A DNA stretch of 64,000 nt from Pseudonocardia ammonioxydans (GTDB lineage: Bacteria; Actinomycetota; Actinomycetes; Mycobacteriales; Pseudonocardiaceae), in the NCBI RefSeq assembly GCF_900115005.1, contig NZ_FOUY01000003.1, positions 124,001 through 188,000 on the forward strand. The letters run 5' to 3'. The translations under genes were made by a program, and so were the position numbers. The notes below the pieces were generated by a model. It saw only the letters and a list, made by a program, of their open reading frames with translations. It was not told where the DNA came from and did not search any database. Of this stretch, positions 8,373-59,519 are shown one piece after another (position 1 is the first letter of the stretch; each line of letters opens with the position of its first letter).

Positions 8373-8395
8373 CACCGGGCCCTCCCGCACGACCA

Positions 8396-8440: not shown

Positions 8441-8483
8441 CGGCATGTGGGGGCGCGGGAGGCCGGGCCCCGGGCGAGCCGGT

Positions 8484-42691: not shown

Positions 42692-43150
42692 TCAGTGGTG
42701 GGGCGGGGCGGGCAGGTTCTCCGCGTCCTCGAAGATCAGGAAGGTGCGGGTCGCGATCACTCCGGGCAGCGCCTGGAGCTGTTCGAGCACCACACGGCGC
42801 AGCGCGTCGTTCCCCGCGGCCCGCACGAGCAGCATCACGTCGAACTCACCACCGAGCAGGGCCATGTGCCGGACCTCGGGAATCGTCCGCAGCCGCTCCT
42901 GCAGGTCCCGCCAGTTGCTCTGCCGGACCGTCATCGTCACGTAGGCCGAGGTCGTCAGGCCGACCTTGGCGGGGTCCACCCGGGCGGAGAAGCCCGTGAT
43001 CACGCCGTCGGCGACCAGGCGTTCGAGGCGGGCGTAGGCGTTGGCCCGCGAGATCATGACGCGTTCGGCGAGCGCCCGGCCGGACAGCCGGGCGTCCGCC
43101 TGCAGCTCGGCGACGATCCGGTGGTCGACGGCGTCCAGAGGGGCGTCCAA
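42692..43150 (-). CDS. Lrp/AsnC family regulator, probable bkd regulator
   Basis: The 152-residue protein has a helix-turn-helix (VDHRIVAELQADARLSGRALAERVMISRANAYARLERL in overlapping parts) and an RAM ligand domain (VRHMALLGGEFDVMLLV). It is divergent from the branched-chain 2-oxoacid dehydrogenase operon; Lrp-type regulators next to bkd genes usually respond to branched-chain amino or keto acids. The only good start is TTG 43150, preceded by GGGAGAG. Confidence 0.85.
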   Translation of the reverse strand: MDAPLDAVDHRIVAELQADARLSGRALAERVMISRANAYARLERLVADGVITGFSARVDPAKVGLTTSAYVTMTVRQSNWRDLQERLRTIPEVRHMALLGGEFDVMLLVRAAGNDALRRVVLEQLQALPGVIATRTFLIFEDAENLPAPPHH

Positions 43151-43309
43151 TCGTCTCTCCCGTCCCGCTGTACGGCGCGCCGGGTGAGCCACTCGTTGCG
43201 CGACAGCGACTCGTCTCGTCCGGTCGTCTCGGAATTCCACGCAACCGTAGCCGAATGGGCGTTCGGCTCGCGAGGATCGTGCCTCGACGTCGTGCCGATG
43301 GAGGTCCAG

Positions 43310-44386: not shown

Positions 44387-45375
44387 TGTCCGAGCCGAAG
44401 ATGACCATGGCGCAGGCCCTCAACACCGCGCTGCGCGACGCCCTGACCGCGGACGACGCGGTGGTGGTGTTCGGCGAGGACGTCGGCGCCCTCGGTGGGG
44501 TGTTCCGGGTGACCGACGGGCTGCACCGCGACTTCGGTGAGCGGCGGTGCTTCGACACCCCGCTGGCCGAGTCCGGGATCGTCGGGATGGCGGTCGGGAT
44601 GGCGATGAACGGGATGCGCCCGGTCGTCGAGATGCAGTTCGACGCGTTCGCCTTCCCGGCCTTCGAGCAGGTCACCAGCCACGTCGCGAAGCTGGCCAAC
44701 CGCACGCGGGGCGCCCTGCGGCTGCCGATGGTCATCCGGATCCCCTACGCCGGGGGGATCGGCGGGGTCGAGCACCACTGCGACTCCTCCGAGGCCTACT
44801 ACGCCCACACCCCGGGCCTCACGGTCGTCGCCCCCGCCACCAACGCGGACGCCTACGGCCTGCTGCGGGCGGCGATCGAGAGTCCGGACCCGGTCGTGTT
44901 CCTGGAGCCGAAGAAGCACTACTTCGCCAAGGAGGAGGTCGACGTCGGCGCGGGGGTGCCGCCGATCGGCCGCGCGGTCGTGCGCCGGCCCGGCGCGGAC
45001 GCGACGCTGATCGCCTACGGACCCTCGGTGCCCGTGGCGCTGGCCGCCGCCGAGCAGGCCGCGACCGAGGGGCGGGACCTGGGCGTGCTCGACCTGCGCT
45101 CGATCGTGCCGTTCGACGACGAGACGGTCGCCGCCGAGGTCCGCCGGAGCGGGCGCGCCGTCGTGGTCGCCGAGGCACCGGGCTTCGCCTCGGTGGCCTC
45201 GGAGATCGCCGCGCGGGTGTCCGAGCGCTGCTTCCACCATCTCGAGGCCCCCGTGCGCCGCGTCACCGGGTTCGACGTGCCCTATCCCGCTCCGAAGCTG
45301 GAGCGCCACTTCCTGCCCGGCGTCGACCGGATCCTCGACGCCGTCGACACCCTGCACTGGGAGGACGCCGCGTGA
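44386..45375 (+). CDS. bkdB: Branched-chain 2-oxoacid dehydrogenase E1 beta
   Basis: The 329-residue protein is a transketolase-like E1 beta: FGEDVGALGGVFRVTDGL, FDTPLAESGIVGMAVGMA, and EVDVGAGVPPIGRAVV. It pairs with E1 alpha. The start overlaps the E1 alpha stop by one base and the stop overlaps the E2 start by four, so the three subunits are translationally coupled. Confidence 0.94.
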   Translation: MSEPKMTMAQALNTALRDALTADDAVVVFGEDVGALGGVFRVTDGLHRDFGERRCFDTPLAESGIVGMAVGMAMNGMRPVVEMQFDAFAFPAFEQVTSHVAKLANRTRGALRLPMVIRIPYAGGIGGVEHHCDSSEAYYAHTPGLTVVAPATNADAYGLLRAAIESPDPVVFLEPKKHYFAKEEVDVGAGVPPIGRAVVRRPGADATLIAYGPSVPVALAAAEQAATEGRDLGVLDLRSIVPFDDETVAAEVRRSGRAVVVAEAPGFASVASEIAARVSERCFHHLEAPVRRVTGFDVPYPAPKLERHFLPGVDRILDAVDTLHWEDAA

Positions 45376-46808
45376 GCGCGCAGGTCTTCACCCTGCCCGA
45401 CCTGGGGGAGGGCCTCACCGAGGCGGAGCTGGTCCGGTGGCTGGTCGCGGTCGGTGACACGGTCGCGGTCGACGCGCCCGTCGCCGAGGTCGAGACGGCC
45501 AAGGCGATGGTCGAGGTGCCCTCGCCGTTCGGCGGCGTGGTCGCTCAGCTGCACGGTGCGGAGGGCGCCACGCTCGCCGTCGGCGAGCCGCTCATCTCTG
45601 TCACCACCGAGGAGGCTGCCACCACCGAGGAGACGCCGAGCGCCGCGGAGCAGACCTACGTGGAGGAGGAGCGGGCCGGGTCGGGCAACGTCCTCATCGG
45701 GTACGGCACCTCCGGCGGTGCCCCGTCGTCCCGGCGCCGGCGCCGGGGCGCCGCTCCCACCTCCGCGGTGCCCGCCCCCGCCCCGCGGGATCCCCGGGGG
45801 AACGGCGACCGGCCCGCGGTGATCTCGCCGATCGTCCGCAGGCTCGCCCGGCTCGAGGGAGTGGACCTCGCTGCGCTGGCGGGGACGGGTCCGGCCGGCC
45901 TGATCACCCGCCGGGACGTCGAGGCCGCCGTGGCCGCCGCGGCGCCACAGAGCCCGCCGGCTCCGCAGAGCCCGACGACACAGCAGCCCCCGACGACACA
46001 GCAGCCCCCGACGACACAGCAGAGCCTGACGACACAGCAGAGCCCGACGACACAGCAGGGCCCGACGGCACCGCCGGCTCCCGTCGCCGAGGACGGCGTG
46101 GACCGCCGGACCGGCCTCCCGATCCGCACCCGCGTCCCGCTCACGGGCCTGCGCAAGGCCGTCGCCGAGACCCTGTCGCGGAGCCGTTCCGAGATCCCCG
46201 AGGCCACCACCTGGGTGGACGTGGACGCGACCGCGTTGCTGGAGCTGCGCGCGCAGCTCGGGGCGCGTGGTGCGGCACCGGGTGTCCTCGCCATGGTCGC
46301 CCGGTTCGTCGTCGCCGGATTGGCCCGCTTCCCCGAGCTCAACTCCCGTGTGGACACCGGACGCGGCGAGATCACCCACCTCGACGGCGTCCACCTCGGG
46401 ATCGCCGCGCAGACCGACCGCGGACTCGTGGTGCCCGCGGTCCGGGACGCGCACCGGCTCGGCATGCGCGGCCTCGACAGCGAGATCCGCAGGCTCACCG
46501 CGGCGGCCCGCGCGGGCACCGCGACCGCGGCCGAGCTCAGCGGCGGCTCGTTCACCCTGAACAACTACGGGGTGCTCGGCGTCGACGGCAGCGCCGCGAT
46601 CATCAACCATCCCGAGGCCGCCATCCTCGGCATGGGCCGGATCCTGCCGCGCCCGTGGGTCGTCGACGGCGAGATCGTCGCCCGGCAGATCGTGCAGCTG
46701 TCGCTGGTGTTCGACCACCGCGTGTGCGACGGCGGCACGGCGGGCGGGTTCCTCCGGTTCGTCGCCGACGCCGTCGAGTCCCCGGCCTCCGCGATGGCCG
46801 ACCTGTGA
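45372..46808 (+). CDS. bkdC: Branched-chain 2-oxoacid dehydrogenase E2 (dihydrolipoyl acyltransferase)
   Basis: The 478-residue protein has one lipoyl domain (lysine in VETAKAMVEVPSPFGG at about residue 44), a peripheral-subunit binding domain (SPIVRRLARLEGVDLAALAG, about 150-185), a Thr/Gln/Pro repeat linker and the catalytic acyltransferase domain ending in FDHRVCDGGTAGGFLRF with the active His. The E3 partner binds the subunit-binding domain, but the E3 gene that follows is broken. Confidence 0.95.
   Translation: MSAQVFTLPDLGEGLTEAELVRWLVAVGDTVAVDAPVAEVETAKAMVEVPSPFGGVVAQLHGAEGATLAVGEPLISVTTEEAATTEETPSAAEQTYVEEERAGSGNVLIGYGTSGGAPSSRRRRRGAAPTSAVPAPAPRDPRGNGDRPAVISPIVRRLARLEGVDLAALAGTGPAGLITRRDVEAAVAAAAPQSPPAPQSPTTQQPPTTQQPPTTQQSLTTQQSPTTQQGPTAPPAPVAEDGVDRRTGLPIRTRVPLTGLRKAVAETLSRSRSEIPEATTWVDVDATALLELRAQLGARGAAPGVLAMVARFVVAGLARFPELNSRVDTGRGEITHLDGVHLGIAAQTDRGLVVPAVRDAHRLGMRGLDSEIRRLTAAARAGTATAAELSGGSFTLNNYGVLGVDGSAAIINHPEAAILGMGRILPRPWVVDGEIVARQIVQLSLVFDHRVCDGGTAGGFLRFVADAVESPASAMADL
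45969..46058. repeat. bkdC: Five 18-bp in-frame repeats in the E2 linker
   Basis: Five units of AGCCCGACGACACAGCAG encode repeated (S/P)PTTQQ in the flexible linker between the binding and catalytic domains. Confidence 0.85.
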
Positions 46809-47079
46809 CCGCCGGACGCAGCGTCGACCTCGTCGTCCTGGGCGAGGGTTCCGGCCGCTACGCCTGCGTGTAGCGCGTCGCCCAGCTCGTCCTGGTGGAG
46901 AAGGACGAGCTGGGTGTGGCACCTGCCTGCACCGGGGCGGCATCCCGACCGAGGCCTTGCTGCACGCCGCCGAGGTGACCGACTACGCCAGGGGCGCGGC
47001 GCAGGTCGGCGTGCGTGCCGAGCCGTACGGCGTCGACATGCCGGCGGTGCTGTGGTCACGCTTCGTTGTCGATGCCTAG
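46805..47079 (+). pseudogene. lpd: Truncated, decayed dihydrolipoamide dehydrogenase (E3) remnant
   Basis: The GTG at 46805 overlaps the E2 stop. The frame reads RSVDLVVLGEGSGRYACV, the FAD-binding start of E3, then a stop at 46871-46873. Homology continues as AQLVLVEKDELG; a two-base insertion then shifts the frame, which resumes as LHRGGIPTEALLHAAEV and ends at 47079. In a working E3 this segment reads C-x4-C with RGCIPTKALLH: the second redox Cys is now Gly and the Lys is Glu. Only about the first 95 of 460 codons remain. The product cannot be active. Confidence 0.88.
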
Positions 47080-47094
47080 GTGTCGATGCCTAGG
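47067..47094. repeat. 14-bp direct duplication at the lpd breakpoint
   Basis: TGTCGATGCCTAGG occurs twice in direct tandem at the point where E3 homology ends, as a deletion or insertion scar might. Confidence 0.7.
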
Positions 47095-47109
47095 TGTCAC
47101 TGCTTCGTT

Positions 47110-47147
47110 GTCAATGGTTCGTTGACGCCGGCATTTCGTCAACGAAC
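47110..47147. repeat. TCAATG palindrome element, copy 1
   Basis: TCAATG-GTT-CGTTGA (one arm mismatch) is followed by CGCCGGCATTTCGTCAACG. Similar elements occur at 57997 and 63191. Confidence 0.7.
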
Positions 47148-47206
47148 CGACGACCCCCGGCCCGCCGGGGGAGCGGCCGGAACCCGGCCGCGCTCCGCCC
47201 CGGACC

Positions 47207-47385
47207 GGGCGAGAACGTGCTGATCGTCGGGCCCTGGTGCTGTGACACGCGCGCTTGCGCCCGTCCGAGGGCGAGAACGTGCCACTCGCCACCCGCGGTC
47301 CGCCCAGATGCACGCTGTCGCCCCTTGGAGGGCGAGAACGTGCCGCTCGGTGCCGACGCCCGGCCCGACGTGCACGCTGTCGCCC
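47207..47385. repeat. Hairpin-repeat array, locus 1 (3 units, about 61-bp period)
   Basis: Each unit starts GGGCGAGAACGTG and ends CACGCTGTCGCCC, which are imperfect complements. Left arms lie at 47207, 47269 and 47330; right arms at 47311 and 47373, with a degenerate one near 47246-47262. The same array occurs at 58195-58333. Confidence 0.85.
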
Positions 47386-47424
47386 ACAGCCCACAGCCCA
47401 CAGCCCACAGCCCACAGCCCACAG
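47383..47424. repeat. CCCACAG tandem repeat, six copies
   Basis: Six exact 7-bp units directly follow the hairpin array. Confidence 0.9.
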
Positions 47425-47801
47425 CCGCCGCGCCCACCGGCCTGGCCCGGGTCCGGCTCACCGGCAGAACCGGCATCGCCCGGACCGGCGCCGCACCCCC
47501 TGGCGTCCGGGGCGGGCTGGCCGGGCGCGGCGGCAGCCGGCTCGGTGTGCCCCGGCCCGGCCGCCTCGCGACCGGCCATCCGGCGCGGCGGACGCCCGAC
47601 GGCGATGCGCTCCGGCGACGCCGACCGGGCCGTGTCCCGGCCGGCTCGGGAGCCGCGCTGCCTGGGCCGCGGTCCGGGAGCCGGCGGTCCGGGGCGAGCG
47701 GCCCCGGGGGGCGCGCGGGTACCGGACCGAGGGCCGGCAAGCTCTGCAGCAAGAGCTGGGGCGGGGCGGCCCCCGGGGGTGCGGGTACCGGAGCCGACAG
47801 G

Positions 47802-48482
47802 TCAGGCCGGCGTGCCGTGCGCCGCCCGGGCGTTCCGCAGGGCGCGGCCCCACCAGACGAGCTGGCCGGCGAGCACGTGGGCGGCGGCCGCCCCGGCGCC
47901 GCCGTCGGTGAGGCGGCCGTCGGCGTCGAACAGCGACCAGAACTCGTGCAGGCTCACCGCGTCCCGCACCGGCGCGCCGTGCAGCTCCACGAACACCGTA
48001 CGCAGGTGCTCGACGGCGCGGATCCCGCCGGACAGGCCGCCGTAGCTGACGAACCCGACCGGCTTGGCCGCCCACTCGGCGTGGAACGCGTCGATCGCGG
48101 ACTTGAGCCCGGCCGGATAGGAGTGGTTGTACTCCGGGGTCACGACGACGAACGCGTCGGCGGCGTCGAGCCGGCGCCGCAGGTCGTCGTCGGCCGTGTC
48201 GAGGGAGGGGGAGAGGGTCGCCGCGGCCAGGTCGACCACATCGGTGACGACGTCGTCGCGCCCGGCGAGCTCCCCGGCGAACCAGCGGGCCGCGGTCGGC
48301 CCGAACCGGCCGGTGCGGACGCTGCCGATGATCACCGCGATCCGGACGGGACCGTCGCGCCCGCCGTCATCGGCCGCCGCGGCGGTCCGGGTACCGGAGC
48401 CGGTGACACCGGAGGCGGTGGTATCGGAGCCGGAAGTGCCGGAGGTGGTGGTGCCGGTGAGGGTGGTGCCGGAGGTGGACAC
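47802..48482 (-). CDS. NADPH-dependent FMN reductase family protein
   Basis: The 226-residue protein has a flavodoxin-like domain: IAVIIGSVRTGRFGPTAARWF binds the FMN phosphate, and VVTPEYNHSYPAGLKSAID is the second family motif. It reduces flavin or quinones with NADPH in the cytoplasm. The first 45 residues are a Thr/Ser/Gly-rich repeat-like extension, which appears genuine because AGGAG lies before GTG 48482. Confidence 0.88.
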   Translation of the reverse strand: MSTSGTTLTGTTTSGTSGSDTTASGVTGSGTRTAAAADDGGRDGPVRIAVIIGSVRTGRFGPTAARWFAGELAGRDDVVTDVVDLAAATLSPSLDTADDDLRRRLDAADAFVVVTPEYNHSYPAGLKSAIDAFHAEWAAKPVGFVSYGGLSGGIRAVEHLRTVFVELHGAPVRDAVSLHEFWSLFDADGRLTDGGAGAAAAHVLAGQLVWWGRALRNARAAHGTPA

Positions 48483-48565
48483 GGGTGCGCTCCTCGGGAT
48501 CGTCGGGCGGCCCTTCCGCCCGCTCCCGGACCACGCTAAAAGCTCGATCTCACTTCAGGTCAAGC

Positions 48566-50080
48566 TCAGCTCGGATGGGCGGGGTCGCCGGCCTCCCGCG
48601 AGTGCAGCGCGAACCAGAGCTCGGCCCGCACACCCGGCGAGTCGAGGTCCCGCTCGAGCAGCGAGCCCGCCTTCTCGATCCGGGCGCGCAGCGTGTGCCG
48701 GTGCACCCCGAGCCGGCCCGCGGCCGGATCCCACTGGCCGTGGTGGGCCAGCCACTCGCGCAGCGAGCCGATCAGGTCGCCCCGGCGCTGCGCGTCGTGC
48801 CGCACCAGGGGAGCGAGCACCGACTCGGCGAAGGCGGTGGCGTCCTCCGGGGCCATGAGCGCGGCGAGCCCGCTGCCGGCCAGGTCGGCGAACCGCAGCA
48901 CCGCCCGGTCCCGCCGGCCGGCCGCGTCGAGAGCCCGGCCCGCCTCGCGCAGCGCCCGGCCGAGGCCGGTCACCGGCACCGGGTCGGAGATGCCGGCGCG
49001 GATGCCGCGGACCCGGGCGGCCAGCGCGAGCACCGGCTCCACCGCGTCCGCCCCGACCACGGCCGCGACGTGGCCGTCCAGCTCGGCGTGGAAGCCGGCC
49101 GAGGCGCGCTCGAGCGCGTCGAGCAGGATCTCGGAGCGCCCCGGGGCGGGCCGTCCGCCGAGCGCGACGACGACCAGGTCGCCGTCGGGCAGCGGGCCCC
49201 AGGTATCGGCCAGCACCTCCTCGGCGCCGCAGCCGGGCAGCGTGGCCAGGGCCCGCAGCACCGCGGTGCGCAGCCGCTGCTCGGCGCGCCCGGCGGCGGC
49301 GCTGCGGGCGTGGGCCAGGGTCAGCACCGAGACCGCGGACCCGATGACCTGACGGTCGACCGGGCTGAACCGCCGGTCCCGGCCGACCGCGAGCACGGCG
49401 GGCCCGACGAGGCGGACCGGCTGCAGGACCACCTGCCCGCCGCCGGCGGAGACCGTGACGCTGGACGGCCCGGCGTGCTCGCGCACTCGGGCGATCTCGC
49501 CGGCGAGGGCCGCGGCCCGGGGGGAGGCCTGCGGCGGGGCGGCGTGCCGGACCCGGTCGTCGGCGTCGGAGATCAGCACCCAGGCCCCGAGCCGGTCGGC
49601 GAGCCGGTCCAGTACCCGCCCGGTGCTGCCGTCGCGGTCCTCGCCGAGAGCGGCGGCGGTGAGCGCCCGCTGGGCCTCATCGGTGCGCACGACCTCGGCG
49701 AAGCGCTCGGCGGCGCGGGCCTCCGTGACCGCGCGGGTCAGTGCCAGGAACGGCGTCCGCTCCGGGACCTCGAGCAGCGGCAGGCCCGCCCGGGTGCAGG
49801 CGTCGGTGACGGCCGGCAGGTGCTCGTCGTGCCCGAGGCCGGTGCCGAAGCCGAGCCCGGCCAGACCGTGCCGCGCCAGCCGGGCGACGTAGCGCTGCGG
49901 GTCGCCCGCCGGACCGAGCCCGGTGGTCAGCAGCAGCTCGCCGCCGTCCAGGTACGGGGTGGGGTCGCGCAGCTCGCTGGAATGCACCCAGGAGATACGT
50001 CGATCCAGATCCGCGGAGGAACACACGGCCCGCAGTCCGAGTCTGCGGTCGGCGCACAGATCGCGCAGCGTGAACGGCAC
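48566..50080 (-). CDS. PucR family transcriptional regulator
   Basis: The 504-residue protein has an N-terminal PucR domain (SWVHSSELRDPTPYLDGGELLLTTG) and a C-terminal helix-turn-helix (LGVHRHTLRARIEKAGSLL). In Bacillus PucR activates purine catabolism in response to allantoin-type intermediates; relatives control nitrogen-compound breakdown. It is divergent from the molybdenum-hydroxylase/carboxylase operon with a 121-base gap, so it is the likely regulator of that operon. GTG 50080 is used. Confidence 0.88.
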   Translation of the reverse strand: MPFTLRDLCADRRLGLRAVCSSADLDRRISWVHSSELRDPTPYLDGGELLLTTGLGPAGDPQRYVARLARHGLAGLGFGTGLGHDEHLPAVTDACTRAGLPLLEVPERTPFLALTRAVTEARAAERFAEVVRTDEAQRALTAAALGEDRDGSTGRVLDRLADRLGAWVLISDADDRVRHAAPPQASPRAAALAGEIARVREHAGPSSVTVSAGGGQVVLQPVRLVGPAVLAVGRDRRFSPVDRQVIGSAVSVLTLAHARSAAAGRAEQRLRTAVLRALATLPGCGAEEVLADTWGPLPDGDLVVVALGGRPAPGRSEILLDALERASAGFHAELDGHVAAVVGADAVEPVLALAARVRGIRAGISDPVPVTGLGRALREAGRALDAAGRRDRAVLRFADLAGSGLAALMAPEDATAFAESVLAPLVRHDAQRRGDLIGSLREWLAHHGQWDPAAGRLGVHRHTLRARIEKAGSLLERDLDSPGVRAELWFALHSREAGDPAHPS

Positions 50081-50201
50081 GGAGCCCCCTGACAGACCGG
50101 AGTGTCGGCAACATCGAACTCGACGATCCGGACACTACCGCCTCCCGGTGTCGTCGATCACGCTGTCCGGCACGGATCTGCCATCGTCGGGAAGGATCAG
50201 C

Positions 50202-52598
50202 GTGACCACCACCACGCCGCCGCGCTATGTCGGTACGAGCATGCTGCGCAAGGAGGACCCGGCCCTGCTGACCGGCCGGGGGACCTGGACCGACGGCATC
50301 GTCCCGCCGGGGACCCTGCACATGGCGTTCGTCCGGAGCCCGCTGCCGCACGCCCGGATCGTCTCGGTCGACACCACGGCCGCCCGGGAGCACCCGGGCG
50401 TGACCGCCGTGTTCACCGCCGAGGACGTCGACGACGAGTTCCTGGTCGGCATCCCGTGCGGCTGGCCGGTCACCGAGGACATCAAGATCCCGGACCACCG
50501 GCCGCTGGCGCGGGGCGAGGTCAACCACGTCGGCGACGGTGTCGCGGTCGTGCTGGCCACCGACGCCGCCGCCGCGCGGGACGCGGCCGACCTGGTCGAC
50601 GTGGAGTACTCCGAGCTGCCGGCCGTGGTCGACATGGCCGACTCGCTCGCCGAGGACGCCCCGCTGGTCCACGCCGAGCTGGGCACCAACCACTGCTACA
50701 CCTGGCCGCTGGCCACCGGTGACGTCGACGCCGCGTTCGCCGAGGCCGACGTCGTCGTGTCCGGGCAGTACCTGCAGCAGCGGGTGATCCCGTCCCCGAT
50801 GGAGCCGCGCGCCGTGGTCTGCGTGCCGGACCAGGTCGGCGGCGGGTTCACCGTCTACACCGCCACCCAGGTGCCGCACTTCGTGCGCGACCTGCTGGCC
50901 GCGGTCACCGGGATCTCCGACACCAAGATCCGTGTCGTCGCCCCGGACGTGGGCGGCGGCTTCGGCGCCAAGCTCAACGTCTACGCCGAGGAGTACCTCG
51001 CACTGGTCCTGGCGCGGAAGCTGAACAAGCCGGTCAAGTGGACCGAGACCCGCTCGGAGCACCACCAGGCCACCACGCACGGCCGGGGCCAGATCCAGGA
51101 CATCTCGGTCGCGGCCACCGCCGACGGCAAGATCCTCGGGATGAAGATCGAGCTGCTCGCCGACATGGGCGCCTACCTGCAGCTGCTCACCCCGGGCATC
51201 GCCGTGTTCGGGGCCTTCACCTTCTGCGGGCTCTACGACTTCGGCAGCTACTCGTTCACCTGCCGCGGGGTGTTCACCAACCTCACCCCGACCGACGCCT
51301 ACCGCGGCGCGGGCCGCTCCGAGGCCGCCTACGGCCACGAGCGGATCATGGACGACCTGGCTCGTGAGCTGGGTATGGACCCGGCCGAGGTGCGGCTGCG
51401 CAACCTGCACCCGAAGTTCGACGAGCCGCGCACGGTGCCCTCCGGCGTGCAGTACGACTCCGGCGACTACGAGACCTGCATGCGCCGGGCGATGGAGCTG
51501 GCCGACTACGACGCGCTGCGGGCCGAGCAGCGCCGGCGGCGCGAGGCCGGTGACGCGGTCCAGCTCGGCATCGGCTTCGGCAACTTCACCGAGTCCGGCG
51601 GCCTGTCGCCGTCGAAGGTCGCGGCCGGGGTGCGGCTGCAGTCCGGTGGCTGGGAGCAGGCGACCGTCCGGATGACGACCTCGGGCAAGGTCGAGGTCGT
51701 GACCGGCACCTCGCCGCACGGGCAGGGCCACGAGACGGCGTGGTCGCAGATCGTCGCCGACCGGCTCGGCGTGCACCCCGACGACGTCGAGGTGCTGCAC
51801 AGCGACACGCTGATCGCGCCGTTCGGCCGCGACACCTACGGCTCGCGCAGCCTGGCCGTCGGCGGCTCGGCCGTGCACCTGGCGGCGGGCAAGGTGCTGG
51901 ACAAGGCGCGCCGGATCGCCGCGCACCTGCTCGAGGCCGACGAGACCGACCTCGAGTTCGACTCCGGCACGTTCCGGGTGGCGGGGACCGCGTCGCCGTC
52001 GGTCACCATCCAGGAGGTCGCCGGGGCGGCCTCGCTGGCCGCGGACCTGCCCGAGGGCATGGAGCCGAACCTGACCGCCGACTCGGCGTTCGACCCGCCG
52101 AACTTCACCTGGCCGTTCGGCACCCACGTCTGCGTGACCGAGGTGGACACCGAGACCGGCTTCACCCGGATCCGCCGCTACGTCGCCGTGGACGACTGCG
52201 GCGTGGTCGTGAACCCGACGATCGTGGAGGGCCAGCTGCACGGCGGCATCGCCCAGGGCATCGGGCAGGCGCTCTACGAGCACGCCACGTTCGACGCCGA
52301 CGGCAACCCCACCGCGGGCAACCTCGCCGCCTACACCGTGCCCGCGGCGTCCGACCTGCCCAGCTTCGAGCTGGACCAGCTGGTGACGCCCTCGCCGACC
52401 AACCCGCTCGGGGTGAAGGGCATCGGCGAGTCCGGCTCGATCGGCTCGTCGCCGGCCGTGGTCAACGCGGTGATCGACGCCGTGGCGCACCTGGGTGTGA
52501 CCCATGTGGACATGCCCGCGACCCCGCAGGCCGTCTGGCGGGCCATCAGCGCCGCGAGGCGGGGAGACAACCGGCCCGCCGCGGAGCAGACTGCCTGA
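50202..52598 (+). CDS. Xanthine dehydrogenase/CoxL family molybdopterin-binding large subunit
   Basis: The 798-residue protein is a full large subunit of a molybdenum hydroxylase. It has YVGTSMLRKEDPALLTGRG at the start, the molybdopterin loop VGGGFGAK at about residue 250, AYRGAGRSEAAY at about 366 (the form II type, not the carbon monoxide dehydrogenase AYRCSFR), GQGHETAWSQIVADRLG, and the catalytic Glu in GIGESGSIGS at about 741. Such enzymes hydroxylate N-heterocycles or aldehydes. The medium FAD and small [2Fe-2S] subunits are not encoded next to it. It is the first gene of the six-gene operon. Confidence 0.9.
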   Translation: MTTTTPPRYVGTSMLRKEDPALLTGRGTWTDGIVPPGTLHMAFVRSPLPHARIVSVDTTAAREHPGVTAVFTAEDVDDEFLVGIPCGWPVTEDIKIPDHRPLARGEVNHVGDGVAVVLATDAAAARDAADLVDVEYSELPAVVDMADSLAEDAPLVHAELGTNHCYTWPLATGDVDAAFAEADVVVSGQYLQQRVIPSPMEPRAVVCVPDQVGGGFTVYTATQVPHFVRDLLAAVTGISDTKIRVVAPDVGGGFGAKLNVYAEEYLALVLARKLNKPVKWTETRSEHHQATTHGRGQIQDISVAATADGKILGMKIELLADMGAYLQLLTPGIAVFGAFTFCGLYDFGSYSFTCRGVFTNLTPTDAYRGAGRSEAAYGHERIMDDLARELGMDPAEVRLRNLHPKFDEPRTVPSGVQYDSGDYETCMRRAMELADYDALRAEQRRRREAGDAVQLGIGFGNFTESGGLSPSKVAAGVRLQSGGWEQATVRMTTSGKVEVVTGTSPHGQGHETAWSQIVADRLGVHPDDVEVLHSDTLIAPFGRDTYGSRSLAVGGSAVHLAAGKVLDKARRIAAHLLEADETDLEFDSGTFRVAGTASPSVTIQEVAGAASLAADLPEGMEPNLTADSAFDPPNFTWPFGTHVCVTEVDTETGFTRIRRYVAVDDCGVVVNPTIVEGQLHGGIAQGIGQALYEHATFDADGNPTAGNLAAYTVPAASDLPSFELDQLVTPSPTNPLGVKGIGESGSIGSSPAVVNAVIDAVAHLGVTHVDMPATPQAVWRAISAARRGDNRPAAEQTA

Positions 52599-52624
52599 CA
52601 CGCCCGAGGAGAGGAGACATTCCC

Positions 52625-53350
52625 ATGGTGGCCATCAACTGCGACATGGGCGAGTCGTTCTCGATCTACCACTGCGGGGACGACGAGGGGCTGATGCCGT
52701 TCGTGACCGTCGCCAACGTGGCGTGCGGCTTCCACGCGTCCGACCCGCGGGTGATGACCCGCACCGTGAAGCTCGCCAAGCGGCACGGGGTGAAGGTCGG
52801 GGCGCACCCGTCGCTGCCGGACCGCGAGGGGTTCGGCCGGCGCGAGATGAAGATGGACCGCGAGGAGCTGACCGCGGCGGTGGTGTACCAGATCGGCGCA
52901 CTGTCGGGGTTCCTGCGCTCGGAGGGCATGGAGCTGCACCACGTCAAGGTGCACGGCTCGCTCTACGGCATGTCCGCGCGCGACCCGGAGGTCGCCGAGG
53001 CGATCGCGGACGCGGCCGACGTGTTCGGCGCGCCGCTGATGGGGCTGACCGGCAGCGTCCACGAGCAGGTGTGGGGCGGCCGGGAGGCGGGCTTCATCGC
53101 CGAGTACTACGCCGATCTCGACTACCGCGACGACGGATCGCTGATCATCACCCGCGAGCACCAGGCGTTCGACCCGGCCCGCTCGGCCGAGCGGGCGCTG
53201 CGCGCGGTCACCGAGGGCAAGGCGACCTCGGAGAGCGGCAAGGAGATCCCGGTGCGCGCGGACTCGGTCTGCGTGCACTCCGACACCCCGAACGCCGTCG
53301 AGCTGGCCCGCGCGGTCAACCAGGCCCTGCAGCCCCACCTCGACAGGTAA
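52625..53350 (+). CDS. LamB/YcsF (PxpA-like) family protein
   Basis: The 241-residue protein begins MVAINCDMGESFSIYHCGDDE and has NVACGFHASDP, VGAHPSLPDREGFGRREM and VKVHGSLYG. These are the LamB/YcsF motifs, shared with PxpA, the 5-oxoprolinase subunit that works with PxpB and PxpC. Several positions differ from the usual form (HASDP for HAGDP, KVHGSLYG for KPHGALYN), which may mean a different substrate. ATG 52625 follows GAGGAGAGGAG. Confidence 0.85.
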   Translation: MVAINCDMGESFSIYHCGDDEGLMPFVTVANVACGFHASDPRVMTRTVKLAKRHGVKVGAHPSLPDREGFGRREMKMDREELTAAVVYQIGALSGFLRSEGMELHHVKVHGSLYGMSARDPEVAEAIADAADVFGAPLMGLTGSVHEQVWGGREAGFIAEYYADLDYRDDGSLIITREHQAFDPARSAERALRAVTEGKATSESGKEIPVRADSVCVHSDTPNAVELARAVNQALQPHLDR

Positions 53351-53377
53351 GACCCAGCACAGCACGAAGGAGTCCAG

Positions 53378-53623
53378 GTGCCCCGACACGAGGTCGTCTC
53401 CCCGATCCCCGGCGTGTTCTACCGCCGGCCCGACCCCGACAGCCCCCCGTTCGCCGAGGACGGTGCCTCGGTCACCGACGACTCGCCGGTCGGCCTGGTG
53501 GAGGTCATGAAGTCGTTCCACCAGATCCCGGCCGGCGCGTCCGGCACGGTGGTCGAGTTCCTCGTGGGCGACGAGGACGAGGTCGACGCCGGGCAGCCGG
53601 TGGCCGTGGTGGAGACGGCATGA
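53378..53623 (+). CDS. Biotin carboxyl carrier (biotinyl) domain protein
   Basis: The 81-residue protein is a lone biotinyl domain: VSPIPGVFYRRPDPDSPPF, then VGLVEVMKSFHQIPAG, whose lysine at about residue 46 is the biotin site, and VVEFLVGDEDEVDAGQPVAVVE. The motif is EVMKSF instead of EAMKM, as in carriers next to KipI/KipA genes. GTG 53378 follows AAGGAG. Confidence 0.88.
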   Translation: MPRHEVVSPIPGVFYRRPDPDSPPFAEDGASVTDDSPVGLVEVMKSFHQIPAGASGTVVEFLVGDEDEVDAGQPVAVVETA

Positions 53624-53633
53624 GGGGAGCACC

Positions 53634-54989
53634 GTGAGACGGCTGCTCGTCGCCAACCGCGGGGAGATCGCCGTCCGGATCATCCGGGCCGCCCGCGACC
53701 TGGGGATCTCGACGGTCGCCGTGGCGTCGAAGGCCGACGCCGACGCGCTGCACACCCGCCTCGCCGACACGAGCGTGGAGATCGGGCCGTCGCCGGCGTC
53801 GAAGTCCTACCTGGTGGCGGACGCGCTCCTCGCCGCGGCGAAGGAGACCGGCGCGGACGCGATCCACCCCGGATACGGGTTCCTCTCCGAGCGGGCGGCG
53901 TTCGCCGACGCCGTCGCCGGGGCCGGGCTGACCTTCGTCGGGCCCGCCGGGTCGGTGATCGAACGGATGGGGGACAAGGTCGCCGCCCGCGAGGTCGCGC
54001 GCGCGGCCGGGGTCCCGACGGTGCCCGGCACACCCGGCGGCGTGTCCGGCGTCGACGCCGCGGTCGAGGCCGCCCGCGAGACCGGCTACCCGGTGATGCT
54101 CAAGGCCGCGGCCGGCGGCGGCGGGCGCGGCATCCGGGTGGTGCACGACGAGGACGGGCTGCGCTCGGCGTTCGGGCAGGCCTCCACCGAGGCGCAGAAG
54201 GCGTTCGGCGACGGGACGATGTACCTGGAGCGGTTCGTCGAGCGGGCCCGGCACGTCGAGGTGCAGGTCCTCGGCGACGGCACGGACGCGGTCCACCTGT
54301 TCGAGCGGGAGTGCTCGCTGCAGCGCCGCCGGCAGAAGGTCGTCGAGGAGGCGGTCTCGCCGGGCATCTCGCAGCAGGTCCGCGACGCGATGACGACGGC
54401 CGCGGTGCAGCTGTGCCGCGAGGTCGGCTACACCTCCGCCGGCACCGTCGAGTTCCTCGTGGACGACGATTCCGGCGCGTTCTTCTTCATCGAGATGAAC
54501 ACCCGGATCCAGGTCGAGCACCCGACGACCGAGCTGGTCACCGGCATCGACCTGGTCGCCGAGCAGCTGCGGATCGCGGCGGGCTCACGGCTGCGGTTCA
54601 CCCAGGAGCAGATCGAGCGCCGCGGCCACGCCATCGAGTACCGGGTCTGCGCCGAGGACCCGGCGCGCGACTTCCTGCCGCAGCCCGGCCCGGTCGGGCG
54701 GGTCACGCTGCCGTCCGGGCCGTGGGTCCGCTGCGACACCTGGCTGGAGCCCGACGGCACCGTGCCGCCGTACTACGACTCGCTGATGGCCAAGGTGGTC
54801 GTCTGGGGTGCCGACCGCGAGGAGGCCCTCGCGCGGTCCCGCCGCGCGCTCGACGAGTTCTCGGTGTCCGGCATCGCGACCACGGCCGGGCTGCTGCGCG
54901 AGCTCACCGACGAGCCGTGGGTCGCGTCGGCGGACTTCCACACCTCCACGCTGGAACAGTGGCTCACCTCCCGGAAGGAGACCTCATGA
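53634..54989 (+). CDS. Biotin carboxylase subunit
   Basis: The 451-residue ATP-grasp enzyme starts RRLLVANRGEIAVRIIRAARDLG and has KAAAGGGGRGIRVVHDE (ATP loop) and EMNTRIQVEHPTTELVTGIDLV (bicarbonate and biotin site). It carboxylates the biotin on the carrier encoded just upstream. Length is that of a stand-alone AccC. The last bases overlap the KipI-like gene (ATGA). Confidence 0.93.
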   Translation: MRRLLVANRGEIAVRIIRAARDLGISTVAVASKADADALHTRLADTSVEIGPSPASKSYLVADALLAAAKETGADAIHPGYGFLSERAAFADAVAGAGLTFVGPAGSVIERMGDKVAAREVARAAGVPTVPGTPGGVSGVDAAVEAARETGYPVMLKAAAGGGGRGIRVVHDEDGLRSAFGQASTEAQKAFGDGTMYLERFVERARHVEVQVLGDGTDAVHLFERECSLQRRRQKVVEEAVSPGISQQVRDAMTTAAVQLCREVGYTSAGTVEFLVDDDSGAFFFIEMNTRIQVEHPTTELVTGIDLVAEQLRIAAGSRLRFTQEQIERRGHAIEYRVCAEDPARDFLPQPGPVGRVTLPSGPWVRCDTWLEPDGTVPPYYDSLMAKVVVWGADREEALARSRRALDEFSVSGIATTAGLLRELTDEPWVASADFHTSTLEQWLTSRKETS

Positions 54990-55858
54990 GCGCCCGCTAC
55001 AGCTGGGGCGGCGACGAGTTCATCTTCGTCGAACTGGCCGAGGAGATGAGCCTGCAGGCCAACTTCAAGGCCGTCGCCATCACCAACCTGCTCCGCGAGG
55101 AGCGGCCGGACGGCATCCTCGAGATCTGCTCGGCGAACGCGTCCTACCAGGTCCGCTACGACCCCGACGTGCTCGAGCCGCACGCGTTCCTCGAGCACCT
55201 CAAATCGCTCGAGGACCGGGTCGGCGACGCGCTGGGCGTCACGCTGGACTGCCGGGTCGTCGAGATCCCGGTGCTCTACCAGGACCCGTGGACCACCGAG
55301 ACCCTGATGCGCTTCCGGGACCGTCACCAGGATCCCGAGGCCACCGACATCGAGTACGCTGCCCGGATCAACGGCTACTCCTCGGTCGAGGAGTTCATCG
55401 CCGCGCACTCCGGCTCGCCCTGGTTCACCTCGATGGTCGGGTTCGTCGCCGGGCTGCCGTTCAAGTACCAGATGGTGCCCCGGGAGCGGCAGATCGTGGT
55501 GCCGAAGTACCTGCGCCCGCGCACCGACACCCCCAAGCAGACCGTCGGCTACGGCGGCTGCTTCTCCTGCATCTACTCGGTCCGGGGCGCCGGCGGCTAC
55601 CAGATGTTCGGCATCACCCCGGCCCCGATCTACGACCCGCGCCAGACCAAACCGGACTTCACCGAGCACAAGGTGTTCATGCGGCCCGGCGACATGGTCA
55701 AGTTCCGGCCGATCGACCGCGACGAGTACGACGAGTCGCAGGCGAAGGCGGAGGCGGGCGAGTACCGGATCACCGCCCGGGACGTCTCGTTCGACCTGCA
55801 GCCGTTCCTGGACGACCCGGACGGCTACAACAAGCGCCTGCTGGGGGAGTTGGCATGA
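54986..55858 (+). CDS. KipI/PxpB-type carboxyltransferase-domain protein (AHS1-like)
   Basis: The 290-residue protein has YSWGGDEFIFVELAEEMSLQANF at the start and the AHS1 core FVAGLPFKYQMVPRERQIVVP with QTVGYGGCFSCIYSVRGAGGYQMFGITP. AHS1 is the domain of KipI/PxpB and of urea carboxylase. It is about 60 residues longer than a usual KipI, mainly in the middle and at the C-terminus. It should pair with the KipA-like product encoded next. Confidence 0.86.
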   Translation: MSARYSWGGDEFIFVELAEEMSLQANFKAVAITNLLREERPDGILEICSANASYQVRYDPDVLEPHAFLEHLKSLEDRVGDALGVTLDCRVVEIPVLYQDPWTTETLMRFRDRHQDPEATDIEYAARINGYSSVEEFIAAHSGSPWFTSMVGFVAGLPFKYQMVPRERQIVVPKYLRPRTDTPKQTVGYGGCFSCIYSVRGAGGYQMFGITPAPIYDPRQTKPDFTEHKVFMRPGDMVKFRPIDRDEYDESQAKAEAGEYRITARDVSFDLQPFLDDPDGYNKRLLGELA

Positions 55859-56841
55859 CCGCACCGGCGACAACCATCGAGGTCCGCAAGCCGGGCCTGT
55901 CCACGACGATCCAGGACGGCGGGCGCTCGGGCTACTACCACCTGGGCATCCCGCCCTCGGGGGCGCTGGACCAGTACTCGCTGGCCGCGGCGAACGCGCT
56001 GGTCGGAAACGGCGCCGACGACGCCGTGCTCGAGATCGTCTACATGGGACCGGAGCTGCGGTTCACCGGCCCGGCCGTGGTCGCGGTGACCGGTGCGGAG
56101 ATCGCACCGCGGGTGAACGGGGAGAGCCGGCCGCTGTGGGAGTCGTTCGCCGTCGCCGAGGGGGACGTGCTCGACTTCGACTACCTCAAGGCGGGCTCGC
56201 GGGCCTACCTGGCGGTCTCCGGCGGCTTCGACACCCGCGTCGACCTGGGCAGCCGCTCCACCTACGTGATCGGCTCGCTGGGCGGGGTGGACGGCAGGCC
56301 GATCGCCGAGGGCGACGTGCTGCCGGTCGGCACCGGCGCCGCCGGACGCGCCGGGCTGGTCGTGCCGGACGGCCTGCGCCCGGCGATGTCCAAGGACGTC
56401 GAGGTGCGGGTCGTGATGGGGCTCTACGACCACCGGCTCACCGACCGCGGCCGGGCCACGTTCCTGGACACGACCTGGACGCTCACCCCGGTCGCCGACC
56501 GGATGGGCTTCCGCTACGCCGGGGGAGAGCTGGAGACCGTCGACCGGGAGCCGCCGTTCGGGGCCGGGCAGGACCCGTCGAACATCGTGGACTCGCCGTA
56601 CCCGATCGGGTCGATCCAGGTGCCGGGCGGCGTCGAGCCGATCGTGCTGCACCGCGACGCGGTGTCCGGCGGCGGCTACATGATGGTCGCGACCGTGCTG
56701 TCCGGGGACCTCGACATCGTCGCCCAGTCCGCGCCGCGCACGAGGACGCGGTTCGTCGAGGTGGACCTGGAGACGGCGTTGCAGCTGCGGGCCGAGCGGA
56801 AGGACCGGATCGCCCGGATGTACGCCGCGCTCTCGGACTGA
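55855..56841 (+). CDS. KipA/PxpC-type biotin-dependent carboxyltransferase protein (AHS2-like)
   Basis: The 328-residue protein shows VRKPGLSTTIQDGGRSGYYHLGIPPSGALDQYSLAAANALVGN in overlapping segments, then AVSGGFDTRVDLGSRSTYVIGSLGG and YPIGSIQVPGG. This is the AHS2 domain of KipA/PxpC and urea carboxylase. With the KipI-like protein it would form the carboxyltransferase or ring-opening unit. It is the last gene of the operon, overlapping its neighbour by four bases. Confidence 0.88.
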   Translation: MTAPATTIEVRKPGLSTTIQDGGRSGYYHLGIPPSGALDQYSLAAANALVGNGADDAVLEIVYMGPELRFTGPAVVAVTGAEIAPRVNGESRPLWESFAVAEGDVLDFDYLKAGSRAYLAVSGGFDTRVDLGSRSTYVIGSLGGVDGRPIAEGDVLPVGTGAAGRAGLVVPDGLRPAMSKDVEVRVVMGLYDHRLTDRGRATFLDTTWTLTPVADRMGFRYAGGELETVDREPPFGAGQDPSNIVDSPYPIGSIQVPGGVEPIVLHRDAVSGGGYMMVATVLSGDLDIVAQSAPRTRTRFVEVDLETALQLRAERKDRIARMYAALSD

Positions 56842-56949
56842 GGCCGGCGCCGTCCCGCTGCAGGACGCCCACCCGTCCGGGGTAGCCGAACTCGTCCATC
56901 TGGTCCACACTCGACGCCCGGTGACACGGACGTTCCGGCGGGGGAGGCG

Positions 56950-57918
56950 GTGCGGGCGATGACGGGCAGGCACCGGAGGACGGCCCGGGCGGGCCTGGTG
57001 CGGAAGGTTCTCGCGGTCGCCGTGCCGTCGATCGGGGTGGTCGCGCTGGCGGCCGCGGTCGCGATCGGCAGTGGGCTCGGGAACTGGCCGGGGTCGGACC
57101 GGGCGGCCGGGCCGGTCGATCCGGACCCGGCCGGGCCGGGCCCGGGTGGGCCGGCGTCCTCGCCGGGGACGGCCGGGTCTGCCCCGGGCGACTCCGTTCC
57201 GGACGGAGCTGTTCCGGGCGACGGTGCTCCGGACGGCCTTGCTCCGGATGCCCGTGCTCCGGGTGGCGTTGTTCCGGAATCCGGTGATGCCGGCCGGGAT
57301 GCCGGTGACGCGGTCCGGGCCGCCGATGCGGCGGGCCGGCACTCCGGGGACGCGTGCCGTGCCGCGGTCGATGCGACCGGCGCGGCAGCCCTGGCCCTGC
57401 GCGGCGGGTCCCCGGCCGGGGCGTCCTCCCGCGGGGCCGGGTCGTCCGCTCAGGCGGCGGTTCCTCCGCGGCCGGGCGCGCGCCCCTCGGACGCGGGATC
57501 GGTCACCGGGGACCCGGGATCCCCGGACTCCCGTTCGGCAGGGTCGCCGGGTGCCGGGGGGACCGGACCCCGGGACACGACCGCGCCGGGAGCGGCCGAG
57601 CCGCGCGAGCCGGTGCAGCGTTCCGCCCCGCGGATCCGACCGAAGCCGTCCGTCCCGCCCCAGCCGTCCGTGCCGCAGGAGCCGTCGGTCTCGCGGCAAC
57701 GTCCGGCACCGTCGATCCCCGCCGAGCCGTCCGACCGTTCTGCGCCGTCCGACCGTTCCGGGCCCGGCTCCGGTGACGAGGTGCGGGACACCCGGTCCGA
57801 CCGGGACACCGGCTCCGGCTCCGGTGATGCGTTGTTGCGGCTGCGGTTGAAGCTGCTGGAGGACCAGGAGGTCGACGTCCGCGTCCCCGGACCGGCCCTG
57901 TCGCTGCTGGACGACTGA
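56950..57918 (+). CDS. Exported low-complexity protein 1 (M-x-G-R-H-R family)
   Basis: The 322-residue protein begins near MTGRHRRTARAGLVRK and then a membrane helix (VLAVAVPSIGVVALAAAVAI). The rest is a Pro/Gly/Ala/Asp/Ser-rich low-complexity chain with a short Pro-Ser repeat (PSVPPQPSVPQEPSV). It is probably anchored or secreted. GTG 56950 or ATG 56959 can start it. It has no known domain; the start resembles the two exported proteins downstream. Confidence 0.6.
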   Translation: MRAMTGRHRRTARAGLVRKVLAVAVPSIGVVALAAAVAIGSGLGNWPGSDRAAGPVDPDPAGPGPGGPASSPGTAGSAPGDSVPDGAVPGDGAPDGLAPDARAPGGVVPESGDAGRDAGDAVRAADAAGRHSGDACRAAVDATGAAALALRGGSPAGASSRGAGSSAQAAVPPRPGARPSDAGSVTGDPGSPDSRSAGSPGAGGTGPRDTTAPGAAEPREPVQRSAPRIRPKPSVPPQPSVPQEPSVSRQRPAPSIPAEPSDRSAPSDRSGPGSGDEVRDTRSDRDTGSGSGDALLRLRLKLLEDQEVDVRVPGPALSLLDD

Positions 57919-57996
57919 CCCGCGTTCCGCGGAACGCCACCCCTGAATGGCTCGGCCCGTGGGCCGTGGCCACCTGCCCGCGCTGTTGTCCTTGAT

Positions 57997-58035
57997 GTCA
58001 ATGGTTCATTGACGCCAGCAGATCGTCAACCAAAC
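57997..58035. repeat. TCAATG palindrome element, copy 2
   Basis: TCAATG-GTT-CATTGA, a perfect palindrome, followed by CGCCAGCAGATCGTCAACC. About 50 bases match copy 3 with few differences. Confidence 0.8.
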
Positions 58036-58194
58036 AGCGACAACCAACCCGGCCTCGATGCCGCAGCGCGCGCCGCTTCCGGTGGGAGGGTCGGGGCTCG
58101 GTGCTCGGGACCGGCCCGGTGCGCGTGGCCATCGGCGTCCGGGGGAGGGCGCGGGATGCGGTCCGGTGCCACGGGTCCGCCCGGCCCGCACGAC

Positions 58195-58333
58195 ATGCGC
58201 GCTTCCGCCCGTCCGAGGGCGAGAAGGTGCCACTCGACACCCGCGGCTGGTTCGACACGCACGCTGTCGCCCCTCGCAGGGCGAGAACGCGCGGCTCAGC
58301 GTGGATGACCGGCCGACATGCACGCTGTCGCCC
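58195..58333. repeat. Hairpin-repeat array, locus 2
   Basis: Left arms at 58217-58229 and 58279-58291, right arms at 58260-58272 and 58321-58333, period 62. The leading 50 bases match locus 1 (47248 onward) with only a few differences, so the two arrays share a recent origin. Confidence 0.85.
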
Positions 58334-58667
58334 GTGCCGGGCGTGGCCGGCACGGGCGTGCGGCCCGGCCGACCGGACGGCGAGGGTGGACTCCGCGCTC
58401 AGCCGGCTACCTCCACCCAGCGGGAGGACACCGAGGCGTGGACGGCGGTCAGCGCCCGTGGGTATCGGCTGGGATCGGTGCGACGCAGTACCGCACCGCT
58501 CGGGCAGGTCGTGGGCGGCCCGGTTGCCGGTGCGGCCGCTCACCGACGTCACCCGGTGAGGACGCCCGGCCCCGGTCCGCCCACCCGTTCGGCCCATGGT
58601 CGTTCCCGACGGGCCGGGTGACGATCATGGGCATGACTGCGCCGAACGGCCCAACGGGGTGTGGCTG

Positions 58668-59519
58668 ATGGAGGGACGGCATCGGAGCTCCGTACCGCCG
58701 GTCCGGCCCGCCCCGGCGGCGCGGGGCCGCCTGCTGCGCACCGTGCTGACCGGTGCGGTGCCGGTACTCCTCGTTCTCTCGCTGGCCACCGCCCTGCTCG
58801 GTGCCGGGCTGTTGGGCGGCGTCGCACCGGCCGAGCAGCGGACCGGGCAGGCCGTCGCGATCCCGACCTTCGAGGGGCCGGCGCCGGACCCGGACGGGGA
58901 CCGGTCCGGGACCACCGACGCGGGTTCGTCCGGCAGCGTGCCCGCCTCCGAGCTCGCGCCGACCTCCACCACCGGGCCGCCCGCGCGCGCAGGGGCTCCG
59001 GCCGTGGTCGCGGCCCGGGAAGGGGCGGCGGCCGACGTGGCAGGCGATGCCTCCCGGGCCGCAGCGATCCGGGTCGCCGACGAGCGGGCCGCGGCCGCGC
59101 GGGCGGTGCAGGCCCGGCGCTCCGCGGAACGCGCGGCGCAGGTGCGGCGTTCCGCGGAACGCGCTGCACAGGAACGCGCTGCACAGGAACGGGCGGCACG
59201 GCAGCGGGCCGAGGAGCAGCAGCGGGAGCGGGAACGGGCCGACCAGCTCGCCCGGCGGACGACTCCGCTACCTCCTGCACCTTCTCCGTCCGGCGAGCCA
59301 CGGCCGAGCGGGGCGCCGACGACCGCGGACACGGCATCCGAGGTACCGGCCACCGGGCCGATCACCCCGGACACGGGATCGACCGCATCGCCCGCTGCGC
59401 CGACGACGCTGCCGGCGCCACCGACCGTCTCGAGCACGCCGCCAGCATCGGTCACGCCGCCGGCCCGACCCGCGGCACCGGGGAGGACAGGGCCGGGCGC
59501 CGGCCTCCCCACCAGGTAG
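58668..59519 (+). CDS. Exported coiled-coil protein 2 (M-x-G-R-H-R family)
   Basis: The 283-residue protein begins MEGRHRSSVPPVRPAP, has one membrane helix (VPVLLVLSLATALLGAGLL), then an Ala/Arg/Glu-rich helical stretch with heptad-like RSAERAAQ and QERAAQERA repeats (about residues 125-190), and a Pro/Thr-rich tail. It looks like an anchored or secreted coiled-coil protein. ATG 58668 is used. Function unknown. Confidence 0.6.
   Translation: MEGRHRSSVPPVRPAPAARGRLLRTVLTGAVPVLLVLSLATALLGAGLLGGVAPAEQRTGQAVAIPTFEGPAPDPDGDRSGTTDAGSSGSVPASELAPTSTTGPPARAGAPAVVAAREGAAADVAGDASRAAAIRVADERAAAARAVQARRSAERAAQVRRSAERAAQERAAQERAARQRAEEQQRERERADQLARRTTPLPPAPSPSGEPRPSGAPTTADTASEVPATGPITPDTGSTASPAAPTTLPAPPTVSSTPPASVTPPARPAAPGRTGPGAGLPTR

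Follow-up and report, generated by a model that had tools for sequence, protein, structure and literature searches.

Which reaction is carried out by a run of six genes that combines a molybdenum hydroxylase with relatives of urea carboxylase and 5-oxoprolinase subunits? The genes lie at 50202-56841 of a 64,000-nucleotide stretch (the window) of contig NZ_FOUY01000003.1 from the soil actinobacterium Pseudonocardia ammonioxydans. They encode a molybdenum (Mo) hydroxylase large subunit (MO), a LamB/YcsF hydrolase, a biotinyl carrier (BCCP), a biotin carboxylase (BC), and the carboxyltransferase subunits AHS1 and AHS2 (Table 1); we refer to the last five as the cassette. In the open reading frame (ORF) check, all six were intact and on the + strand. 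The family identities assigned in a preliminary description of the locus agreed with the Pfam and NCBIfam profile matches, and its divergent PucR gene and its overlap of the last three genes were both found, with BC/AHS1 and AHS1/AHS2 each sharing four bases (ATGA). Our best explanation, with a probability of about 0.5, is that the cassette represents LamB together with a LamA that is split into separate proteins. It would open lactams with the use of biotin and ATP, and an oxidase would feed it; the chemistry and the substrate are what we infer. The broader part of this explanation, in which a biotin-dependent carboxyltransferase acts on a nitrogen compound and LamB is the hydrolase, is likely, and the whole chain including the oxidase is held with lower confidence than that part. 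The enzyme class and the gene linkage of the cassette are supported.

A split urea-carboxylase-like enzyme

The BC, AHS2, AHS1, and biotinyl domains of urea carboxylase were all present as separate proteins. Against the NCBIfam models, AHS1 reached 123 bits for urea carboxylase and 76 bits for PxpB. The single subunits scored between 20 and 539 bits against TIGR02712, the cut-off of which (1304 bits) is set for the fused chain. The predicted AHS1 model (pLDDT 81) had 5i8i and 3va7, the urea amidolyase (KlUA) and urea carboxylase (KlUC) of K. lactis, as its first Foldseek matches (TMq 0.72-0.74), and the other 11 significant matches were PxpB-type chains (TMq 0.34-0.53).

The residue K174 of AHS1 was aligned with K1605 of KlUA, which is given as most likely the essential general base in PMC5770610. 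This position was K in 78 of the 79 aligned AHS1 rows, the remaining row having a gap, and in six further relatives, three of the 52%-type described below and three extra copies from monooxygenase clusters. PH0987, KipI, and the PxpB encoded in the same genome have R at this position. The biotinylation motif E-V/I-M-K-x-F of BCCP was found in all 77 sequences, and the BC residues that we take to be catalytic were conserved in the alignment. The split urea-carboxylase-like enzyme proposed in the preliminary description was thus upheld by the AHS1 and AHS2 profiles, the AHS1 fold, the carboxyltransferase lysine, the intact BC, and the biotinylation lysine.

The cassette shares with KlUC and KlUA the domain content, the AHS1 fold, and the equivalent of K1605; however, its chains are separate, LamB replaces the allophanate hydrolase, and AHS1 identity is 20-23% in the structural alignment. 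In A. nidulans, LamA is urea-amidolyase-like, and lamA and lamB serve the utilisation of 2-pyrrolidinone. This pair would have the same activities as the cassette (biotin carboxylase, AHS1, AHS2, biotinyl domain, and LamB), whereas the cassette consists of separate bacterial proteins and is accompanied by a Mo-hydroxylase and PucR. PMC3412718 connects ycsF with A. nidulans lamB, a gene for the use of 2-pyrrolidinone, and connects kipA with urea amidolyase.

Conservation of the five-gene cassette

We used AHS1 as a query against genome contigs, which resulted in 78 loci, and the neighbouring genes were located by tblastn. The order LamB-BCCP-BC-AHS1-AHS2, in the same orientation, was found in 74 of them. 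Among the four exceptions, three (L014, L015, and L089) were truncated by contig ends, and one from Mycolicibacterium (L087) had no BC or BCCP match. A urea-carboxylase-like enzyme beside LamB, the arrangement that defines the LamA/LamB lactam-utilisation type, was likewise present in 74/78 loci. The loci belong to Actinobacteria, beta- and gammaproteobacteria, and, in one metagenome-assembled genome (MAG), alphaproteobacteria. By record title, the genera were Pseudonocardia, Amycolatopsis, Streptomyces, Saccharopolyspora, Burkholderia, Paraburkholderia, Caballeronia, Achromobacter, Bordetella, Halomonas and relatives, and one Albidovulum MAG. Additionally, AHS1 of the cassette type (E 1e-80 or better) was detected in 86 of 297 sampled Pseudonocardiaceae genomes, representing 16 of 46 genera. 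A second order, LamB-AHS1-AHS2-BCCP-BC, with an AHS1 about 52% identical, occurred in four Pseudonocardia genomes.

The gene linkage of the cassette is beyond chance, given its order in 74/78 loci and its association with MO within the genus. The preliminary description had treated the six genes as one set; the five-gene order held across the loci, but the six-gene set is not a widely conserved unit. As a unit, the cassette is found widely among bacteria, most often with gene names that mislead.

Several loci showed features of their own. The 52%-type AHS1 of L118 (genome G056, 7593-8448) was matched as two pieces, like a frameshift or an assembly error. The locus L111 (genome G029, 5300-9400) is decayed, with PucR, part of BC, AHS1, and AHS2 left and no match to MO, LamB, or BCCP. 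In Burkholderia (L046, L070-L075, L078-L080, and L083, positions 1-4300), biotin synthesis genes were recognised by eye (bioA, bioF, bioD, and bioB); such genes adjoin the cassette upstream in 11/78 loci, as counted by gene family 11, not each of them in every locus. The family counts come from simple clustering, in which family 3 mixes real genes with antisense frames, and for LysR the scan covered a single locus (L047).

The oxidase upstream of LamB

In 15 of the 78 loci, the gene immediately preceding LamB is MO; all of these loci are from Pseudonocardia or from unclassified Pseudonocardiaceae/-ales MAGs. Among the matches listed, an MO ortholog with at least 77% identity was present in 30 of 62 Pseudonocardia genomes, the next matches having at most 59%; for most of these genomes, 16 first-look candidates were scored. 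All 30 fall within the 36 genomes that have an AHS1 of at least 76% identity, and the remaining 26 genomes, which include the four with the 52%-type AHS1, had none (Fisher p 4e-12, uncorrected for relatedness). The distance between MO and AHS1 was 2.3-2.5 kb in 28 of 28 same-contig cases, and in two more genomes the genes were on different contigs. The tally of 30 was obtained at a threshold of E 1e-250, which missed an incomplete MO copy at the end of a contig in G055, so the count becomes 31/36, and further partial copies are possible in fragmented genomes. Of the five cassette genomes beyond these 31, G012 has a monooxygenase near the cassette, G029 has a remnant, and G002, G004, and G045 had no oxidase match within the 12-18 kb covered.

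In 10 of the 78 loci, the same slot was occupied by multicomponent diiron monooxygenase genes (gene families 12 and 13 in all ten); nine of these loci are from Amycolatopsis, Streptomyces, or Saccharopolyspora, and one is from Pseudonocardia. The alpha, beta, reductase, and Rieske components were scanned in L030, the alpha subunit of which resembles toluene/o-xylene- and toluene-4-monooxygenase (E 1e-218). Four Pseudonocardia genomes have close monooxygenase orthologs (at least 86%), in every case at a distance of about 5 kb from an AHS1, and three of these genomes also have the MO cassette. Neither oxidase was seen in the stretches covering the 46 proteobacterial loci. The monooxygenase-type clusters also include a second AHS1/AHS2 pair in L127 (16245-18139), L034 (12286-14162), and L035 (12308-14184).

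In the tree built with FastTree (85 rows, three duplicate rows dropped), every MO cassette was placed in one clade (support 0.99), together with L111, L014, L015, L016, L027, and L032, which had no MO in the stretch covered. The remaining monooxygenase cassettes formed a second clade. A single gain of MO, followed by losses or swaps, would fit this tree. In some loci the slot contains MO and in others the diiron monooxygenase, so that two unrelated oxidases appear to supply one and the same ring-opening module. The Mo-hydroxylase, which had been described as an operon partner, keeps this role in that it goes with the cassette within Pseudonocardia, but it is not part of the conserved unit elsewhere.

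As a protein, MO belongs to the same Mo-hydroxylase large-subunit family as CO dehydrogenase, quinoline 2-oxidoreductase, and 6-hydroxypseudooxynicotine dehydrogenase. It has the loop AYRGAGR, conserved at 98.5% or more per column in 16 MO sequences, and Glu743 within GIGESG. Form I CO dehydrogenase was rejected as its identity, as the Cu-binding loop of the aerobic enzyme is AYRCSFR and the TIGR02416 score was 706 bits against a cut-off of 991. No small or medium subunit was found at the MO locus, so the three-subunit arrangement, with FAD and 2Fe-2S subunits beside the large subunit, is absent there. A tblastn search of 22 MO loci and the window also returned no FAD/Fe-S partner, although this was a weak test, with three of four controls positive and all three being query sources. 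Two more Mo-hydroxylase large-subunit matches (genome G000, C109:54876 and C89:171590) were likewise without FAD_binding_5 or Fer2_2 on their contigs.

Indications of the substrate

A divergent PucR match was present in 8 of the 15 MO loci, which suggests control by nitrogen compounds. In the proteobacteria, a transporter gene lies directly downstream of AHS2 in 41/46 loci; it matched no Pfam family even at E 10, and its predicted fold (pLDDT 78) was nearest to CodB (cytosine) and Mhp1 (hydantoin). A class III aminotransferase, read as an omega-aminotransferase, was no more than about 15 kb away from the MO cassette in 12 of the 31 MO genomes, adjoining MO in four, and it was within 6 kb of AHS1 in all four genomes with the 52%-type. 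The nearest NCBIfam models of the aminotransferase include the omega-aminotransferase AptA, none over its cut-off, and the nearest solved structures include putrescine aminotransferase. Together, PucR, the transporter, and the aminotransferase favour the conversion of a cyclic amide into an omega-amino acid, and 2-pyrrolidinone-type lactams are our leading guess for the substrate.

Several observations weigh against the lactam-opening explanation. For AHS1, E. coli PxpB (5dud_B) scored a TMq of 0.53 but a TMt of 0.74 against the model, and the structural preference for urea carboxylase is partly a length effect because most PxpB-type chains are shorter. The model has low confidence at 176-183 and 190-205, adjoining K174. 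The K/R marker is imperfect, as the M. smegmatis AHS1 in PDB 9yx5, bound to an acyl-CoA carboxylase complex containing AccA3, has R. NCBIfam labels BC and BCCP as acetyl-CoA carboxylase over cut-off (PRK12833, 687 vs 686 bits; PRK08591, 623 vs 597; PRK07051, 113 vs 87), with TIGR00514 accC (579 vs 626.5 bits) and the TIGR00531 BCCP model (63 vs 115 bits) under cut-off. For the oxidase, every MO observed came from a Pseudonocardia or Pseudonocardiaceae/-ales locus, and in G002, G004, and G045 the cassette had neither an MO nor a monooxygenase match in the 12-18 kb read. None of the 12 FAD_binding_5 and none of the 17 Fer2_2 matches in the genome is on C109, the contig of MO, so that the activity of MO is putative. 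The transporter match is structural only, with about 15% identity, and other LeuT-fold transporters match too. The aminotransferase of the window genome is on contig C165, unlinked to the cassette. As a general partner, the aminotransferase failed outside Pseudonocardia: in the 18 family genomes with both matches, the two were on different contigs in 14 and on one contig but more than 700 kb apart in four. At 56-59% identity, these aminotransferase matches are not certain to be orthologs.

Alternative explanations

The enzyme could be a split urea or guanidine carboxylase, its substrate being acyclic and urea-like (urea, guanidine, or a ureido acid); the role of allophanate hydrolase would then fall to LamB or to a separate amidase. 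The AHS1, AHS2, and BC profiles and the AHS1 fold match urea carboxylase, the extra AHS1/AHS2 pairs of L034, L035, and L127 carry a motif, PKYNPAR, that is even nearer to urea carboxylase, and an amidase-like gene was recognised by eye a few kb downstream in L030. However, the five conserved genes include no amidase, a urea substrate gives no ready reason for an oxidase front end, and LamB/YcsF falls in the PxpA family, to which PMC8453981 ascribes lactamase activity. We consider this alternative unlikely.

Carbon carboxylation is also improbable. Here, the Mo-hydroxylase or the toluene-monooxygenase-like enzyme would make an activated ring, the carboxyl group would be added to a ketone, a hydroxy-heteroaromatic, or a dearomatised ring, and LamB would cleave the product. 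Such a scheme gains from the alternative front end, since toluene/o-xylene monooxygenase is an aromatic-ring hydroxylase, from a gene upstream of the monooxygenase with only faint similarity to acetoacetate decarboxylase (Pfam E 0.05), and from the carbon acceptors that most biotin carboxyltransferases use. The known AHS1/AHS2-type carboxyltransferases act on nitrogen instead (urea and guanidine), and the aminotransferase and PucR links indicate nitrogen compounds.

An ordinary 5-oxoprolinase (PxpABC), with BC and BCCP as mere neighbours, has little probability. The LamB/YcsF, CT_C_D, and CT_A_B families are common to both systems, the AHS2 domain model bears the name 5-oxoprolinase/urea amidolyase, and LamB is named PxpA over two subfamily cut-offs (NF003814, 277 vs 226 bits; NF003816, 222 vs 213 bits), although it was under all three PxpA equivalog models. 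In contrast, AHS1 was far under the PxpB equivalog cut-off (75.6/145.55 bits) and AHS2 far under that of PxpC (185.6/500 bits), BC and BCCP are inside the order conserved in most loci, and AHS1 has K174 where the genome's PxpB has R. The genome encodes another PxpA (contig C92) and a PxpB (C128), the neighbours of which are, by eye, a transporter and PxpC; therefore, the cassette need not be the 5-oxoprolinase.

That BC and BCCP are simply acetyl-CoA (acyl-CoA) carboxylase subunits, as their three labels and the AccC-type enzymes among the nearest solved BCs would have it, is very unlikely, since AccA/AccD carboxyltransferase is absent from the conserved unit of the 78 loci, AHS1/AHS2 stand there instead, and the linkage is kept across phyla. 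The M. smegmatis pair MSMEG_0435-0436 (PDB 9yx5) is the solved case of AHS1/AHS2 on a long-chain acyl-CoA carboxylase assembly with the biotin carboxylase subunit AccA3; it differs from the cassette in its R at the K174 position and in that AccA3 is a shared acyl-CoA carboxylase subunit.

Features of the locus

Table 1. Coordinates and characteristics of the features annotated in the window.
Feature	Position	Strand	Description
MO, molybdenum hydroxylase large subunit (CoxL/quinoline-oxidoreductase-like)	50202-52598	+	GTG start, 798 aa; MoCoBD_1/2, Ald_Xan_dh_C
LamB/YcsF (PxpA-like) hydrolase	52625-53350	+	241 aa; LamB_YcsF
BCCP, free-standing biotinyl carrier	53378-53623	+	GTG start, 81 aa; Biotin_lipoyl; biotinylation site EVMK45S
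BC, biotin carboxylase	53634-54989	+	GTG start, 451 aa; Biotin_carb_N / CPSase_L_D2 / Biotin_carb_C
AHS1 / CT_C_D carboxyltransferase subunit	54986-55858	+	290 aa; K174 aligned with KlUA K1605
AHS2 / CT_A_B carboxyltransferase subunit	55855-56841	+	328 aa
PucR-family regulator, divergent	48566-50080	-	Pfam PucR + HTH_30
GGACACTA, candidate promoter/operator element	50130-50137	.	identical in 8/8 aligned PucR-MO intergenic regions

The nearest named relative is P. parietis, with 98% AHS1 identity. The PucR-MO intergenic alignment comprised the window and seven of the eight loci having PucR; besides the candidate element of Table 1, GATCAC at 50156-50161 was identical in all eight regions. Degenerate direct repeats with a period of about 62 bp lie on both sides of the region, at 47196-47385 and 58182-58333, and have the motifs TGCACGCTGTCGCCC and AGGGCGAGAACG in common. 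A guessed palindrome for these repeats gave 0 matches, and Rfam gave no match at the gathering threshold within 46500-58700. At 42560-46808, ORFs resemble by eye branched-chain 2-oxoacid dehydrogenase E1alpha, E1beta, and E2, with a PTTQQ repeat as the E2 linker.

Proposed route and significance

In the proposed mechanism, BC would charge BCCP with CO2 from bicarbonate and ATP, as its family and intact residues suggest. By homology to urea carboxylase, AHS1 and AHS2 would then transfer the carboxyl group to the nitrogen of a cyclic amide, with K174 as the putative general base. The N-carboxylated ring would be more easily hydrolysed; LamB would open it, and the resulting carbamate of an omega-amino acid would lose CO2, so that bicarbonate would be catalytic and one ATP would be spent per ring. 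In Pseudonocardia, the lactam is probably a product of MO, formed from a cyclic imine or an N-heteroaromatic by hydroxylation of the carbon adjacent to the ring nitrogen, and MO may borrow FAD and Fe-S subunits encoded elsewhere. PucR, judging from its position, may control the operon. In some relatives, the adjoining omega-aminotransferase could process the amino-acid product further.

More tentatively, and short of even odds, the oxidase and the cassette may form a modular N-heterocycle route. An interchangeable oxidase, either the Mo-hydroxylase or the toluene-monooxygenase-like diiron enzyme, would provide a cyclic amide for LamA/LamB-type opening by transient N-carboxylation, with bicarbonate as the catalyst. 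No description of the biotin-linked cassette or of the oxidase coupling was found in the open-licence PMC papers searched, a scope that cannot show it to be unpublished.

If this is true, the modular route would explain the carboxyltransferase look of PxpBC, and many genes that currently bear the name acetyl-CoA carboxylase would be reassigned. The widespread five-gene set, which annotation models divide between acetyl-CoA carboxylase and 5-oxoprolinase, would be one biotin enzyme for stable cyclic amides, with relevance for the breakdown of lactams, pyrrolidone, and N-heterocycles. It would also allow a direct test of the carboxyltransferase fold against 5-oxoprolinase, because the biotin-linked (K) and the PxpB-type (R) versions share one genome.

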